Below are positions 26,927 to 34,988 of a stretch of 35,141 nucleotides of DNA, in pieces (within the stretch, counting starts at the first letter, position 1; every line of letters starts with the position of its first letter). Both the position numbers and the translations under genes were made by a program. The notes under the pieces are model-generated. The model did not search any database. It was not told where the DNA came from and saw only the letters and a program-made list of their open reading frames with translations. The stretch is taken from assembly GCA_003566995.1 (NCBI GenBank), contig PXBG01000121.1:1-35141 (forward strand), in the 5' to 3' direction. This DNA is from Syntrophobacteraceae bacterium (GTDB lineage Bacteria > Desulfobacterota > Syntrophobacteria > Syntrophobacterales > Syntrophobacteraceae).

Positions 26927-27880
26927 ATGGCGACTTATGGTTTGAAGATATTTTCGGGCAGCAGCAATCCCGAATTGACCCAGCAGGTTTGCGATTCTTT
27001 GGAGATCTCCCTCGGGCGTGCCATGCTGGGCACTTTCAGTGATGGAGAAATACGGGTTGAAATCGGTGAGAACGTCCGCGGGGCCGATGTATTTGTCGTG
27101 CAGTCGGGAACGCATCCGGTCAACGATCATCTCATGGAGCTTCTGGTCATGATCGATGCCTTCAAACGTGCTTCCGCAAGGAGAATCACCGCTGTCATTC
27201 CCTACTACAGTTATGCCCGGCAAGACCGCAAGAACAAGCCGCGCGTGCCCATCACAGCACGTTTGGTGGCTGATTTGATCACACGGGTCGGCGCCGACCG
27301 CATCCTCACCATGGATCTTCACGCTGGACAGATACAGGGTTTTTTTGATGTTCCCGTGGACAACCTCTATGCTTCCCCTCTCATCCTTCCCTACATTCGT
27401 GAACACTTCAACGGGGATCTGGTCATTGTCTCCCCAGACGCAGGCGGCGTTCCAAGGGCCCGTGCCTACGCCAGCCAGCTGAAAGCAACGCTGGCACTGA
27501 TCGACAAACGGCGCTCCGACGTGAATCAGGCTGAAGCCATGAACATCATCGGTGAAGTGGAAGGTCGCACTGCGGTGATATTGGACGATATGGTGGACAC
27601 GGCCGGCACACTGGTGGAAGCCGGCAAAGCTTTGATGGAAAGGGGTGCCAAGGCCGCTCATGCATGCGTGACTCATGCGGTTCTATCGGGTCCGGCCGTA
27701 GAGCGCATTGAGCGAAGCAACCTCGAAAGTCTTGTGGTGACCGACACCCTTCCCATGAGGCCCCAGGCGGCTCATTGTCCCAAGATCAAATGCATTCCCT
27801 CATTCAGGCTCTTTTCTGCGGCCATTCGCAACATACACAACGAGGATTCCATCAGCACACTCTTTGAGATTCTTCACTGA
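26927..27880 (+). CDS. prs: ribose-phosphate pyrophosphokinase (PRPP synthetase)
   Basis: The enzyme makes PRPP from ribose 5-phosphate and ATP for nucleotide, histidine and tryptophan synthesis. The 317-residue protein starts MATYGLKIFSGSSNPELTQQ. It has GENVRGADVFVVQS, the ATP/metal segment YYSYARQDRKNKPR, the PRPP synthase signature DLHAGQIQGFFDVPVDNL, the SPDAGGVPRARAYA loop and the PRPP-binding VILDDMVDTAGTLVEA. I use ATG 26927 because the open frame back to 26837 adds cysteine-rich residues outside the family. AAGGT lies about 10 bases before it. It stands alone: the ispE, rplY and pth genes that often flank prs are absent. Confidence 0.97.
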   Translation: MATYGLKIFSGSSNPELTQQVCDSLEISLGRAMLGTFSDGEIRVEIGENVRGADVFVVQSGTHPVNDHLMELLVMIDAFKRASARRITAVIPYYSYARQDRKNKPRVPITARLVADLITRVGADRILTMDLHAGQIQGFFDVPVDNLYASPLILPYIREHFNGDLVIVSPDAGGVPRARAYASQLKATLALIDKRRSDVNQAEAMNIIGEVEGRTAVILDDMVDTAGTLVEAGKALMERGAKAAHACVTHAVLSGPAVERIERSNLESLVVTDTLPMRPQAAHCPKIKCIPSFRLFSAAIRNIHNEDSISTLFEILH

Positions 27881-28146: not shown

Positions 28147-29445
28147 ATGGAAAAGCCTCAGTACATCTATGACATAGATGACCGTCCTCCCCTGGGTCAT
28201 GCTTTCCTCTATGCGCTGCAGTGGGCCATCATTCTTTTTCCTGCTCTCATCATCGTGGCCACCCTTGCGGGAAAGGCATTGGATCTCGATGCAGCCGGGG
28301 AGGTGCGCTTTTTTCAAATGACACTGCTGACCTCCGGTGTTTTCACCCTGCTTCAAGGCTTCTGGGGGCATCGTTATCCATTGTTGGATGGACCAGCTGC
28401 AGCTCTCCTCCTGACTTTCATAGTGCTCGCCCCGTTTGGCATTGAATCCATTCAGGGAGGAACCATCCTGGGAGGCCTTTTCCTCATGGGGATTGTTCTC
28501 ACGGGTCAATTGAGCAAGCTCGTGGCTCTTGCCACTCCCAATGTGGTGGGTGTCATCCTCATGCTCATCTCTTTCACTTTGCTTCCTCATTTGACCAGAA
28601 CCATGACGGGGATGGACGTGCATCCCGATGGACAACCCCTGACCTTTTTTCTGAGCATGGCTCTGGTCATGCTCATTGCCATCCTGTCCCATTGGCTCAA
28701 AGGATTTCTCAAGACCATCGCCCTCCTGGTGGGCATGGTCATTGGCACTCTCGTGTTTGCATTCCTAACCCCTCCCCAGTGGACTCACCTGCTCCAGGCC
28801 CGCTGGCTCGACACGCCATCCCACTGGATTGCCGGAACTCCACACTTTTACTGGCCTGCGGTCATCGCATTGGCAACATCTTATGTGGCGGTGCTTGTGA
28901 ACAGCCTCGGCAGCATCAATGGCATCGCAGTGGTCACAGACACGCAACGATTGTCCAAAGGAATCGAAAGAGGTGTTTTTCTCAATGGCGTGGGAGGCGT
29001 TTTCTGCGGAATTTTCGGCATTGTGGGGCTGGTGACCTACAGCATGAGCCCCGGCGTGGTTCTGGCCAATCGCGTGGCCAGCCGATACACCACCGCTTAT
29101 TGTGGGCTCCTGTTCGTGGTGGCAGCTTTTGTGCCCAAGCTGGCCGCTGTGCTGTCATCCGTACCTTCGCCGGTTGTGGGGGCCACTCTGTGCGTGGCCA
29201 TGGGGGCTCAGGTGGGAGCAGGCCTGGCGGTCGTGGCCAGCAATAAACTCACAAGCCGTGACTATTACGTGGTGGGCTTGCCTGTGGTTTTAGGAACACT
29301 GGTAGGTTTTTTGCCCGAATCTTTTCTGGAAGCGGTGTCTCCCGGAGCGAGGCTCTTTCTCGGAAATGGCCTGATCACGGGCATTGCCCTTGTGCTTTTG
29401 CTGGAACACCTCTTCATGCCAAAGAGAAAAATGGATGACTCCTAG
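28147..29445 (+). CDS. NCS2/SLC23-family membrane permease (divergent nucleobase transporter)
   Basis: This 432-residue polytopic membrane protein has about 12-14 hydrophobic segments and the overall order of UraA/xanthine permeases. The start region is [20 protein letters not shown], then the first helix [19 protein letters not shown]. The family-typical [20 protein letters not shown] and a late [18 protein letters not shown] helix are present. In TM8 and TM10, where UraA has the coupling residues E241 and E290, this protein has VNSLGS (N252) and TYSMSPGV (M300), so substrate and coupling are probably different. ATG 28147 is chosen; a GTG at 28135 would add four residues, and neither has a clear Shine-Dalgarno. 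It precedes the Nudix gene by 50 bases. Confidence 0.88.
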
Positions 29446-29495: not shown

Positions 29496-29951
29496 ATGGT
29501 TGATCCTGACAGAGTCTTTTGTCCAAAATGTGGTTTTAATGTGCACGTTTATCGAAATCCCTTTCTCACGGTGGACATCGTGATCCAAATGGAATCAGGA
29601 GGCATTGTTCTCATCGAGCGCAGGAATCCTCCTCATGGATGGGCCCTTCCGGGAGGCTTTGTGGACTATGGGGAAAGCCTGGAAAGTGCCGCAAGGAGAG
29701 AGGCGCTGGAAGAAACGGGGCTGGAAGTAAGAAATTTGACGCAGTTTCGGGCGTATTCAGATCCTCAGCGCGATCCCCGGCACCACACGGTGACCATGGT
29801 CTTCGCAGCCCAGGCCGCAGGCAAACCCCAGGCTGCAGACGATGCCCGCAACGTGGAGGTTTTTATGCCCCACAGCCTCCCCCGTCTCATGGCTTTTGAT
29901 CACGGGAAGATCCTGAATGATTATCTGGCCTGGAAAGGTGCCAGGGGATGA
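29496..29951 (+). CDS. Nudix hydrolase with N-terminal zinc-finger-like CPxC motif
   Basis: This 151-residue Nudix protein hydrolyses a nucleoside diphosphate linked to another group. The complete Nudix box GX5EX7REUXEEXGU is present from [18 protein letters not shown] to EETGL. A short N-terminal [15 protein letters not shown] precedes the fold, and the substrate loop [15 protein letters not shown] resembles ADP-ribose or NADH pyrophosphatases. GGAAAGGA lies 6 bases before the ATG. The substrate is not determinable. It follows the NCS2 permease by 50 bases and may be co-transcribed with it. Confidence 0.92.
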
Positions 29952-31246: not shown

Positions 31247-32395
31247 ATGAATGATGAAGTTCAGAGCCGGCCACAGGAATCATCCGTTGCTTTTGCCCGC
31301 GAAGGGGCCACCGTCGAAGTGCGGCTTTCCGGGCCCTGGACCATTTCCAGCGGCATTCCTTCTTCTTCCAGAATCCGCGAAGCATTGAGCGCTCATGAGG
31401 ATTGCACACGGATTCGAATCCTTGCGGACGGTGTGGCTCAATGGGACTCCGCTCTCCTGGTGTTTCTGGAACGGCTCAGAAAATTTTCCCGGGAAAGACA
31501 TGTTCAAATGGATTTTCAGGGCCTTCCCGAGGGTGCCGAGCGACTTTTAACGCTTGCTTCGAGACCCTTGCAGGAGGAAAGGGGGGCCCGGGGAGAGGAA
31601 AAGTCCTTTCTCAGTCGCATTGGTCGGGAAGCATTAAAATGGTACCACGCTGCAGGGGAAATCATAGAATTCATTGGCCGTGCCACACTGGCATTGGGGA
31701 ATTTCTTTCGGGGAAGAGCTCAGATGCGCCGCTCCGACCTGTTGGGAATCATTCAGGAATGCGGTGTGAATGCTCTTCCCATCGTGTCCCTCATCAGCAT
31801 TCTTGTGGGACTGATCTTTGCCTTTGTGGGGGCGGTGCAATTGAGAATGTTCGGCGCTCAGATTTTCGTGGCGGACCTGGTTGCCCTTGCCATGGCCCGT
31901 GAGATGGCTGCCATGATGACGGGCATCATCATGGCGGGTCGCACCGGTGCAGCTTTCGCCGCACAGTTGGGCACCATGCAGGTCAATGAAGAAATCGATG
32001 CATTTCGAACTTTTGGCATTTCCCCCATGGAATTTCTGGTTTTGCCAAGGATGCTGGCATTGATGTTGATGATGCCTTTTCTCTACCTGTACTCTCTTTT
32101 CCTTGGAATTCTTGGTGGCGCCATCGTGGGGACCTGGATGCTCGATTTGCCATGGGTGCAATACTCCCATCAGACTCAAATGGCCATCACCCTGACGGAT
32201 TTTTTCATCGGACTGGTGAAAAGTGCCATTTTTGGCGTTCTGGTGGCCGTGTCCGGGTGCCTGAGAGGCATGCAGTGCGGCCGAAGCGCTTCTGCAGTGG
32301 GAATGGCCACGACCTCTGCGGTGGTGACCGGCATTGTGTGGATCATCGTTGCCGATTCCATCGTGACGGTGATCACAAGCATGTTGGGGATTTGA
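31247..32395 (+). CDS. MlaE-family ABC transporter permease with N-terminal STAS-like domain
   Basis: This 382-residue permease moves phospholipids between the membranes in an MCE system. The first 110 residues form a STAS-like domain (VEVRLSGPWTISSG, then RIRILADGVAQWDSALLVFL), which corresponds to the separate MlaB subunit in E. coli. The rest is the MlaE fold: IIQECGVNALPIVSLISILV, EMAAMMTGIIMAGRTGAAFA, GTMQVNEEIDAFRTFGISPM and a final hydrophobic TSAVVTGIVWIIVADSIVTV. About five or six membrane spans are seen. The ribosome site is weak. mlaF follows after 22 bases. Confidence 0.93.
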   Translation: MNDEVQSRPQESSVAFAREGATVEVRLSGPWTISSGIPSSSRIREALSAHEDCTRIRILADGVAQWDSALLVFLERLRKFSRERHVQMDFQGLPEGAERLLTLASRPLQEERGARGEEKSFLSRIGREALKWYHAAGEIIEFIGRATLALGNFFRGRAQMRRSDLLGIIQECGVNALPIVSLISILVGLIFAFVGAVQLRMFGAQIFVADLVALAMAREMAAMMTGIIMAGRTGAAFAAQLGTMQVNEEIDAFRTFGISPMEFLVLPRMLALMLMMPFLYLYSLFLGILGGAIVGTWMLDLPWVQYSHQTQMAITLTDFFIGLVKSAIFGVLVAVSGCLRGMQCGRSASAVGMATTSAVVTGIVWIIVADSIVTVITSMLGI

Positions 32396-32417
32396 AAATC
32401 CTCAGGAAAGCGGTGAC

Positions 32418-33200
32418 GTGAAGGAACCTCAAGAAGCACATATCACTGTGGTGGACCTGGAAATGGCCTACGGCAGCTTTGTCATTCAGAAAGAACTGAA
32501 TTTTTCCATTGGAAGGGGAGAAATTTTCATCATCATGGGTGGCAGTGGCTGCGGCAAGAGCACCCTGCTCAAACACCTGATCGGTCTCATGGAACCGGCC
32601 AGGGGCCGGGTCCTCTATGGGGATGTGAGTTTTTGGGAAATAGACCCGGGGGACCGGGACGCTATCATGCGCCGCTCGGGCATCCTTTATCAGAGCGGTG
32701 CCCTGTGGAGTTCCATGACCCTGGAAGAAAACGTGGCCTTGCCTCTCCAGGAGTATTCTGATCTCAGCATCTCCGACATCAGAGATCTTGTTTCTCTCAA
32801 ATTGGCACTGGTGGGTCTGGCGGGTTTTGAAAGCTTTTACCCCTCTGAAATGAGTGGGGGCATGAGAAAACGCGCTGCCCTCGCACGGGCCATCGCTCTT
32901 GACCCCCAAGTCTTGTTTTTTGACGAACCCTCTGCGGGTCTGGACCCCGTGAGCGCGAGAATGCTGGATGACCTGATTTTGGAACTACGGGACAGCCTGG
33001 GGGCGACAATAGTGGTGGTGACCCATGAGTTGCCCAGCATATTTGCCATTGGCGACAAGGCCGTTTTTTTGGATAGCGAAACAAAAACCATGACCGCTCT
33101 TGGCAATCCTCATGAACTCCTGCAGGAGTCCCCTGACCGAAAGGTTCTCAATTTTCTCACTCGCGGGGAAGCGCAACCCCGAAAAACAGACCGCCCCTGA
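32418..33200 (+). CDS. MlaF-family ABC transporter ATPase
   Basis: This 260-residue ATPase powers the MlaE permease. Walker A is GGSGCGKST (41-49), the Q loop is GILYQSGALWSSMTLEENVA, the signature is MSGGMRKRAALARAIALDP near 145, Walker B is VLFFDEPSAGLDP, and the switch histidine is in VVTHELPS. The Q loop with SGALWSSMT and the MSGGMRKR signature are typical of the Mla/PqiA-associated ATPases rather than import ATPases. It starts with GTG 32418; AGGA lies 10 bases before it. The C-terminal tail after residue 235 is short and charged. The permease precedes it and the MCE gene follows 103 bases downstream. Confidence 0.95.
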   Translation: MKEPQEAHITVVDLEMAYGSFVIQKELNFSIGRGEIFIIMGGSGCGKSTLLKHLIGLMEPARGRVLYGDVSFWEIDPGDRDAIMRRSGILYQSGALWSSMTLEENVALPLQEYSDLSISDIRDLVSLKLALVGLAGFESFYPSEMSGGMRKRAALARAIALDPQVLFFDEPSAGLDPVSARMLDDLILELRDSLGATIVVVTHELPSIFAIGDKAVFLDSETKTMTALGNPHELLQESPDRKVLNFLTRGEAQPRKTDRP

Positions 33201-33303
33201 AGGCCTCGATGAAGTCGGAACTCATGGATACTTCTCACTTTCCACGCAGTGGACGGGTATCCCGGGAGATTCATTGCCTGCTCAGCAGGTGGACCCTTAA
33301 AAG

Positions 33304-34338
33304 ATGAGTCATTGGTTCATGAGCAAAAAAGCGAATCCCAAACTGATCGGATCTTTTGTTGTGGGTGGATTGGCCCTTGCCCTCCTCGCCATTTTTCTGT
33401 TGAGCGCCGGTTTTTTCAGAGAAACGGTGAAGTGCGTGGCCTTTTTTGAGGGATCGGTGAAAGGGTTGAGCGTTGGGGCTCCTGTGACATTTCGCGGCGT
33501 GAGAGTGGGGACGGTCACGGACATTCAACTGCGCATCGGCAGCAATGACCTCGATCATCTCATCCCCGTTTTTTTTGAGATAGAAACTGCAAGACTCACA
33601 ATGGTGCGAGCCGACGGTCAGCCCAACGGACTGGATGTTGATCGCCTGATTGAGAGGGGATTGCGGGCACAGCTGACTGTGCAGAGTTTTGTGACCGGTC
33701 TTCTCATGATCGAACTGGATTTCAGGCCCGGGACACGCAAGGTGCTTGTGGGAACCATACAAGATTACCCGGAAATACCAACCATCCCTTCGGATCTGGA
33801 AGATTTTCTGCGAAGATTTGAGGAAGTTCCCATCGAGGAGGCCCTCGAGCAGATCACAGACATTCTCAAAACTGTCCGGGAATATGTGGATTCACCTGAA
33901 GCCATGGCGCTTCTTCGAAATTTCGGTGAGGCTCTCGAGGGGGTGAATGCGCTTGTGAAGAAAGTTGACGGGCACGCAGACCCGCTTTTAAGGGAAGGAA
34001 CTCTTGCCCTGCGGGAAATGAAACAAACCTTCGGTGAACTCAACAAGCGATTGTCCGCGATACTCGACAGGTCAGAGGGCGCAATGGCTTCGATGGACAA
34101 TGTGGCTGGTGAAATGGACCGGCGTCTGCCCGCGTTGATGGACGAATTGGAAAGAACAGCCAGGTTAACCCAGAATGCCATGGAGAACATGGCGGCTGCC
34201 TCGCAGGAGGATTCGCCCCTCATGCACAACCTCCAGGAACTTTCTGTTGAAATGACTTCTGCAGCACGCTCTATTCGCGTGCTCGCTGACTATTTGCAGC
34301 AAAACCCTGAAGCCTTGTTGCGCGGAAGGCGACCATGA
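33304..34338 (+). CDS. MlaD-family single-MCE-domain substrate-binding protein with long helical tail
   Basis: This 344-residue protein is anchored by one membrane helix (LIGSFVVGGLALALLAIFLL, about 15-34) and has one MCE domain at about 42-120 (AFFEGSVKGLSVGAPVTFRG, VRVGTVTDIQL). Residues about 160-325 are almost wholly alpha-helical and charged, and the C-terminus ends YLQQNPEALLRGRRP, a motif typical of MCE proteins paired with PqiC-like lipoproteins. The length is nearly twice that of E. coli MlaD, so the hexamer would project a helical needle into the periplasm. ATG 33304 is chosen; ATG 33319 is an alternative. It overlaps the earliest start of the next gene by 4 bases (ATGA). Confidence 0.92.
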   Translation: MSHWFMSKKANPKLIGSFVVGGLALALLAIFLLSAGFFRETVKCVAFFEGSVKGLSVGAPVTFRGVRVGTVTDIQLRIGSNDLDHLIPVFFEIETARLTMVRADGQPNGLDVDRLIERGLRAQLTVQSFVTGLLMIELDFRPGTRKVLVGTIQDYPEIPTIPSDLEDFLRRFEEVPIEEALEQITDILKTVREYVDSPEAMALLRNFGEALEGVNALVKKVDGHADPLLREGTLALREMKQTFGELNKRLSAILDRSEGAMASMDNVAGEMDRRLPALMDELERTARLTQNAMENMAAASQEDSPLMHNLQELSVEMTSAARSIRVLADYLQQNPEALLRGRRP

Positions 34339-34349
34339 AAGGAGCAAAA

Positions 34350-34988
34350 ATGGGCCACGTTAAAATCATTCGTGCCACATGGCTTCTCGCCATGCTTGTG
34401 GGCTTATCAGCGTGTGTGGGGGTCTCAAGCAAGCCCTCCAGAACTTTCTTGCTGAACGAGGTGGCTCATTTCAACAAATCCAATGCCATCGATCCCATAA
34501 GAGATTTTTCAAAGGAGCCCCTTCGTGTGGGCGTGGGACCCTTTAAAATACCGGAATACCTGAATCGGCCTCAAATCGTTTCCCGAACTGCCGGAAACGA
34601 ATTGCAGATCAACGAGTTTCATCGCTGGGCGGAACCTCTGGGCGAAAGCATGCCAAGGGTGATGGCTCAAAACATGTCCCGGTTGCTCATGTCTGATCTG
34701 GTTTTTGCTTTTCCCTGGAGGAGCTCCCTGAGGCCCGGTCACCGCGTGACCGTGACCGTGCTGCGCTTCGACGGGAGTCTGGGGGAAGACGTTTCCCTGG
34801 AAGGAATTTGGAATCTTTATGCCGGGAGCAGAAACACGTTGCAGGAATCAAAAAGATTTTCCTTCACGGTGGCCTGCAAAGGGGGAGATTTTGACGCACT
34901 GGTGGATGCCCACAACCATCTTGTGTATCTGCTCAGTCTTCAGGTTGCCTCGGCCATCGGGGCTCACTCCCTCCCCTCCTCATCCTGA
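34350..34988 (+). CDS. PqiC/ABC-type transport auxiliary lipoprotein
   Basis: This probable outer-membrane lipoprotein pairs with the MCE protein. From ATG 34350 it has 212 residues with a lipoprotein signal, MGHVKIIRATWLLAMLVGLS and the lipobox cysteine in LSAC. The mature part opens with RTFLLNEVAHF, then PLRVGVGPFKIPEYLNRPQI, EFHRWAEPLGESMPRVMAQN and RVTVTVLRFDG, the order seen in PqiC (DUF330). ATG 34350 has AAAGGAG at 5 bases; ATG 34335 overlaps the mlaD stop. The gene closes the cluster, the place MlaC has in E. coli. Confidence 0.85.
   Translation: MGHVKIIRATWLLAMLVGLSACVGVSSKPSRTFLLNEVAHFNKSNAIDPIRDFSKEPLRVGVGPFKIPEYLNRPQIVSRTAGNELQINEFHRWAEPLGESMPRVMAQNMSRLLMSDLVFAFPWRSSLRPGHRVTVTVLRFDGSLGEDVSLEGIWNLYAGSRNTLQESKRFSFTVACKGGDFDALVDAHNHLVYLLSLQVASAIGAHSLPSSS

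Follow-up and report, generated by a model that had tools for sequence, protein, structure and literature searches.

The permease encoded in the window, the whole 35,141-nt stretch of DNA analyzed here (contig PXBG01000121.1 of Syntrophobacteraceae bacterium GCA_003566995.1), is a member of the NCS2 superfamily within the clade of Escherichia coli YbbY, and is neither a canonical NAT nor a protein of the YbbY branch itself. As had been observed in the first-pass annotation, residues corresponding to Glu241, His245, and Glu290 of UraA are replaced, and sequence comparison confirms this observation as a whole. The reading that the coupling acid has been lost is incomplete, because another conserved acid stands elsewhere in the protein. 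In all 136 aligned sequences examined that have Glu or Asn at position 252, exactly one of the positions 81, 252, and 253 is acidic. The acid thus seems to have been moved rather than lost in the clade of the window permease. The permease itself belongs to an already known kind of transporter, and what merits testing is how the acid is distributed among these positions. The features concerned are listed in Table 1.

Table 1. Positions of the permease gene, its key residues, and the adjoining genes in the window
Feature	Position	Strand	Basis
NCS2/SLC23-fold permease, 432 amino acids, YbbY-like Asn252 clade	28147..29445	+	PF00860, UraA fold match, tree
TM1 Q25-W26 (Gln-His in canonical NATs)	28219..28224	+	Alignment; canonical motif from PMC5972032 (available part)
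TM3 strand D81-G82-P83; D81 is the clade-conserved acid at the UraA Leu69 position	28387..28395	+	DSSP strand 81-83 in the model; alignment
TM8 helix, residues 236-263	28852..28935	+	Secondary structure of the AlphaFold model
N252, UraA E241 position	28900..28902	+	Two alignments; invariant in 29 relatives
S256, UraA H245 position (SVCT1 Asp345)	28912..28914	+	Alignments; SVCT1 correspondence from PMC10011568 (available part)
TM10 strand 295-297 and residues to M300 (UraA E290 position)	29029..29046	+	Model secondary structure; alignments
Ribose-phosphate diphosphokinase (PRPP synthetase), upstream neighbor	26927..27880	+	NCBIfam PRK01259, 461.5 bits
Nudix hydrolase, downstream neighbor	29496..29951	+	PF00293, 88.6 bits

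Family assignment and residues at the UraA coupling positions

The permease ORF starts with ATG. Its product scores 200.5 bits against PF00860 (curated cutoff, 27), which places it in the NCS2/NAT (SLC23) superfamily, and is the sole PF00860 protein found in its own genome (a 3.04-Mb assembly, 94.47% complete). A counterpart in a sister genome shows 89% identity across the full length of the protein. The suggestion that the permease is not an ordinary uracil or xanthine importer holds, since its scores are 85.6 bits against the uracil permease equivalog NF007995 (cutoff, 477) and 188.9 bits against the xanthine permease model TIGR03173 (cutoff, 414.15), and since it falls into a separate clade in the tree. 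The annotation is corrected accordingly for the whole group: proteins of the Asn252 clade should not be annotated as uracil or xanthine permeases by default. The score against the NCBIfam model NCS2_1 (NF037981), 131.3 bits, exceeds the cutoff of 40, but this model was dropped as proof of membership because it does not discriminate; Glu252 proteins such as L268, L274, and L275 also exceed the cutoff (94-96 bits).

A HMMER pairwise alignment with UraA and a MAFFT alignment of the window permease with seven E. coli K-12 proteins, which include NCS2 proteins of this organism, both place N252, S256, and M300 at Glu241, His245, and Glu290 of UraA, bearing out the proposed correspondence. This residue correspondence is one of sequence alignment, and the fold match to UraA described below is for the whole chain. 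An alignment error concealing acids that are really located at the TM8 and TM10 sites is scarcely conceivable: nothing was found in its favor, the two methods agree, and the TM8 helix (residues 236-263) contains no acid anywhere.

Canonical NATs are defined by three motifs, in TMS1, TMS8, and TMS10, according to the available part of PMC5972032. The frame flanking the replaced residues in TM8 and TM10, which had been described as conserved, is partly kept, but all three motifs fail. The Gln-His of TMS1 is Q25-W26 in the window permease, both residues being invariant in the 20-row alignment. The segment at the TMS8 motif reads N252-S-L-G255-S256. In the TMS10 motif, counted from M300, the Gly and the last Arg are kept, while the first two positions and the Thr are not. 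The absence of the canonical motifs would also fit a family member that is inactive or receptor-like. Such a protein is very improbable, given the open frame, the conservation across genera, the invariant polar and glycine positions, and the confident full-length fold of the model.

The differences from known transporters extend beyond UraA. XanQ, XanP, and UacT have a Glu in TM8 and a Gln in TM10, both of which are missing in the window permease, and the TM3 Gln of XanQ and XanP is replaced with Asp. The Na+ ligands Glu341 and Asp345 of SVCT1 (SLC23A1), as given in the available part of PMC10011568, correspond to N252 and S256. YbbY is far closer in these features. It shares with the window permease the TM1 Gln-Trp, the TM3 [DE]GP (Glu-Gly-Pro in YbbY), and the TM8 Asn at the E241 position, and, as in the Bacillota relatives, there is no acid at either UraA glutamate position. 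Contrarily, TM10 of YbbY is FSPFVSSIG whereas that of the window permease is SYSxSPGV-like, and the ybbY gene is located in the allantoin cluster whereas the window gene is in a PRPP synthetase-Nudix setting.

Distribution of the conserved acid in the clade

A protein search of 97 genomes gave matches in 50, the window's own genome counted. Twenty-nine relatives (L003-L031) were read out; all of them keep N252, G255, and S256, which is more than chance would give, and have Asp or Glu as residue 81. None is acidic at residue 300, where M, L, I, V, T, or S is found. Since N252, G255, and S256 are found in all 29 relatives, and the TM8 Asn in YbbY as well, Asn252 is not peculiar to the window gene. 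The loss of the glutamates, regarded earlier as a peculiarity of this gene, is the same throughout the clade, in Desulfobacterota, in Bacillota, and in E. coli YbbY. A subclade carrying an Asn/Met pair had also been anticipated. The tree does contain an Asn clade, but residue 300 is free within it, and the pair was dropped as a subclade marker because M300 varies among the relatives.

Scanning of genome contigs yielded 79 loci, 76 of which were aligned at full length (the partial loci L065, L081, and L087 were left out). Asn252 is present in 74 of the 76, and the other two (L084 and L086) have Met. All 76 are acidic at position 81, though this count is biased by the inclusion of [ED]GP in one of the two patterns used for scanning. 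Of a further 60 stretches fetched, the analysis excluded 40 with the best match to GhxQ (AzgA-like), two incomplete ones (L192 and L239), and L242, which had no match. The total of 189 rows was thinned at 95% identity to 151 rows, which cover the fetched part of the PF00860 loci and thus sample the phylum rather than enumerate it.

Asn252 is found in 102 of the 151 rows. The acid is at position 81 in 87 of them and at position 253 in 15, with no row having both or neither, and none of the 102 is acidic at 256 or 300. Most of the rows acidic at 81 came via the scan whose patterns included [ED]GP. Among the 29 Asn252 rows from outside the pattern scan, excluding the window permease and YbbY, 14 have the acid at 81 and 15 at 253, and none lacks it. 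None of the 34 Glu252 rows has an acid at 81 or 253; their residue 300 is acidic in 24 and Gln in nine. The other 15 rows have Lys (eight), Gln (three), or Met (four, two of which are acidic at 81) at position 252. These rows are related to one another, and no probability is attached to the split; the 102 Asn252 rows are not independent because the pattern rests on few evolutionary events, the acid at 253 having arisen once.

Position 81 is Asp or Glu in 44 of 44 rows of the window clade. The only acids conserved in at least 90% of 43 clade rows and the window permease are D81 and D372. D81 is the sole one within the transmembrane core, D372 being at the start of helix 370-387 in the model.

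The careful tree was calculated for 64 of the 151 rows after blanking of the trait columns 25, 26, 81, 252, 253, 256, and 300. All 39 rows with the acid at 81 or 253 share one side of a branch (100/100), and this YbbY-containing Asn252 clade, to which the window permease belongs, is apart from the Glu252 and Lys252 proteins. The clade is split into a 20-row branch (100/100), which holds YbbY and proteins of Bacillota, and a 19-row sister branch (100/99), and the window permease is in the latter, not inside the YbbY branch proper. The 19-row branch is further split into 10 rows with the acid at 81 including the window permease (99/97) and nine rows with the acid at 253 (100/100). A quick tree (95 of 127 rows) gave the same groups. 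Rooting among the Glu252 types is weak in the careful tree (72/31). Most simply, the ancestor of the Asn clade would have had an acid at 81, and one branch would have lost it and gained that at 253 in a single event.

The proteins with the acid at 253, which come from the phylum of the window (L131, L134, L137-L145, L225, L233, L237, and L245), have Asn252 and the TM1 Gln-Trp as in the window permease, but differ from it in having Asp or Glu directly after Asn252 and no acid at 81. Two other groups without Glu252 should be noted. In a Lys branch (L172, L173, L187-L190, L193, and L194), the E241 position is occupied by Lys (SLKTVGD-like) and the E290 position by Ser or Ala. In the NCS2 proteins L191, L196, L199, and L244, the E241 position has Met or Gln, but Glu is retained at the E290 position.

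The TM8 glutamate is the residue commonly invoked to account for proton coupling in NCS2 transporters. The present clade, which is large and widespread, does without it and has an acid at either of two alternative sites, and proteins differing at 81, 252, and 253 are a ready comparative set for asking which residue couples substrate to ion. We tentatively suggest, with somewhat less than even confidence, that the binding-site carboxylate is movable within one fold, being located at TM8 residue 252 in UraA- and XanQ-type proteins, at TM3 residue 81 in the branches of YbbY and the window permease, and at TM8 residue 253 in the third branch. If this is true, NCS2 provides a natural series for determining where an elevator transporter needs its coupling acid, with the Lys252 branch as a fourth case, in which an acid is changed to a base. 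Neither the TM3 acid nor the 81/252/253 pattern was seen described in the available parts of open-licence PMC papers on YbbY, NCS2/NAT, and SVCT1/UapA.

Binding site in the predicted structure

The AlphaFold model of the window permease (63 rows) has a mean pLDDT of 92.6 and a pTM of 0.90. Its fold matches those of the uracil:H+ symporter UraA (8oo1_C; Z, 42.8; rmsd, 3.0 Å; 22% identity over 399 aligned residues), UapA (5i6c_B; Z, 41.8), and SVCT1 (7ytw_A; Z, 41.3; rmsd, 2.1 Å), and is common to XanQ, XanP, and UacT as well. Likening D81 to the chloride-site residue of SLC26 transporters was considered and dropped, since we take the SLC26 residue to lie in TM1. Short strands in the model at residues 81-83 and 295-297 match the TM3 and TM10 strands of UraA. 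According to the available part of PMC5539350, these UraA strands provide the primary site for uracil, which is held through the backbone of Phe73 and a link from Ser72 through water to Glu241. D81 aligns with UraA Leu69, a few residues upstream of Ser72 and Phe73, though Leu69 is not known as a substrate contact.

Taken with its place in the branch sister to that of YbbY, these features suggest that the window permease may be an elevator-type NCS2 nucleobase importer with a relocated carboxylate. The binding site would retain one carboxylate, with D81 of TM3 substituting for the TM8 glutamate, and N252 would be a neutral hydrogen-bond partner. With the D81 carboxylate retained, substrate binding, and probably proton coupling too, would persist.

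Alternatively, the loss of the Glu residues in TM8 and TM10 and of the His/Asp in TM8 might have ended proton coupling, so that the protein is a nucleobase facilitator, uncoupled or coupled to another ion, in which D81 is only structural. N252, S256, and M300 are all non-ionizable, the E241A and H245A mutations of UraA are reported as loss-of-function in the available part of PMC5539350, and the residues of the SVCT1 Na+ site are also gone. However, the acid at 81 is strict, the sister branch has an acid at 253 instead, and no Asn252 row lacks both, which is hard to explain as purely structural at both positions. We therefore regard such a facilitator as unlikely, and the loss of the glutamates, from which lost coupling had been argued, is poor evidence for it when a conserved acid stands at 81, or at 253 in the sister branch.

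Genomic neighborhood and possible purine salvage

The setting between PRPP synthetase and Nudix genes is kept in the closest relatives of the window permease. Among 47 loci (L037-L083), the PRPP synthetase gene (prs) is upstream in 25 of the 44 with more than 1 kb of upstream sequence, a Nudix gene is downstream in 26 of the 41 whose downstream sequence exceeds 300 bases, and the two are found together in 22 of 38. This synteny may reflect vertical inheritance alone.

Seven proteins of the window genome match PF00156. One of them shares 43.6% identity with E. coli Hpt (tblastn), indicating the presence of Hpt, while none of the seven matches Upp. Apt was not detected in this genome either, the one match (E, 4.7e-5) being to L184, which we take to be PyrE-like; the other PF00156 proteins are presumably PyrR, PurF, and ComF-like. 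The absence of Apt and Upp is tentative because the genome is 94.47% complete. No match was obtained in a search for NCS1. An Rfam scan of the whole window gave only two tRNAs at gathering scores, with no purine riboswitch seen.

The presence of Hpt, the lack of detected Apt and Upp, and the adjoining PRPP synthetase gene favor uptake of bases usable by Hpt. The substrates would be purine bases, most likely hypoxanthine and guanine, since Hpt is encoded, the PRPP synthetase gene adjoins, and the permease is the sole PF00860 protein. Combining this with the sequence patterns, we give about even credence to a hypoxanthine/guanine-type importer whose single binding-site carboxylate is supplied by D81. 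The available part of PMC6308229 names YbbY as the known representative of cluster 3 in NAT/NCS2 subfamily 1 and cites unpublished evidence that this cluster transports adenine, guanine, and hypoxanthine; further clusters without an assigned function are distinguished there as well. No paper linking YwdJ with a nucleobase was found among open-licence PMC papers.

The earlier proposal that the protein may carry another substrate could be realized with a non-nucleobase or catabolic cyclic amide, such as ureides or creatinine-like compounds. The pocket residues of the window permease are indeed unlike those of UraA, XanQ, XanP, UacT, and RutG, and creatininase, M20 peptidase, or isochorismatase-family genes adjoin some relatives. 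Against this, PRPP synthetase and Nudix are the neighbors in the window and are conserved in the closest relatives, Hpt is encoded in the genome, and no catabolic amidohydrolase is found among the ten window genes scanned around the permease. The context thus argues for nucleobases over an unrelated substrate, and a cyclic-amide substrate for the window permease is improbable.

As the neighbors just described suggest, substrates may differ within the wider branch. The PRPP synthetase neighbor is missing at L049, L050, L052, L053, L056, L057, and L079. L053 adjoins an isochorismatase-family gene, L052 creatininase and M20 peptidase genes, L056 an NMT1-like gene, and L057 a beta-lactamase-fold gene, so that some members of the branch may carry a catabolic substrate. 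Some relatives adjoin a dehydrogenase gene. These neighbors were identified in a scan of 18 hand-picked genes, several of which (L140, L143, and L071) matched nothing. Unrelated neighbors were also seen at L137, L134, L143, and L138. In the branch with the acid at 253, L131 is beside a PurS/FGAM-synthase-like gene; L138 is beside a weak phosphoribosyltransferase match.

The window genome encodes two PRPP synthetase-like proteins, L180 and L182. The gene for the second, L182, adjoins frames that we take to be ispE-, ribosomal L25-, and Pth-like. Further downstream in the window, an SLT_2 gene is followed by an Mla-type lipid transport operon (MlaE, ABC ATPase, MlaD, and an auxiliary lipoprotein) at positions 31247-34988.
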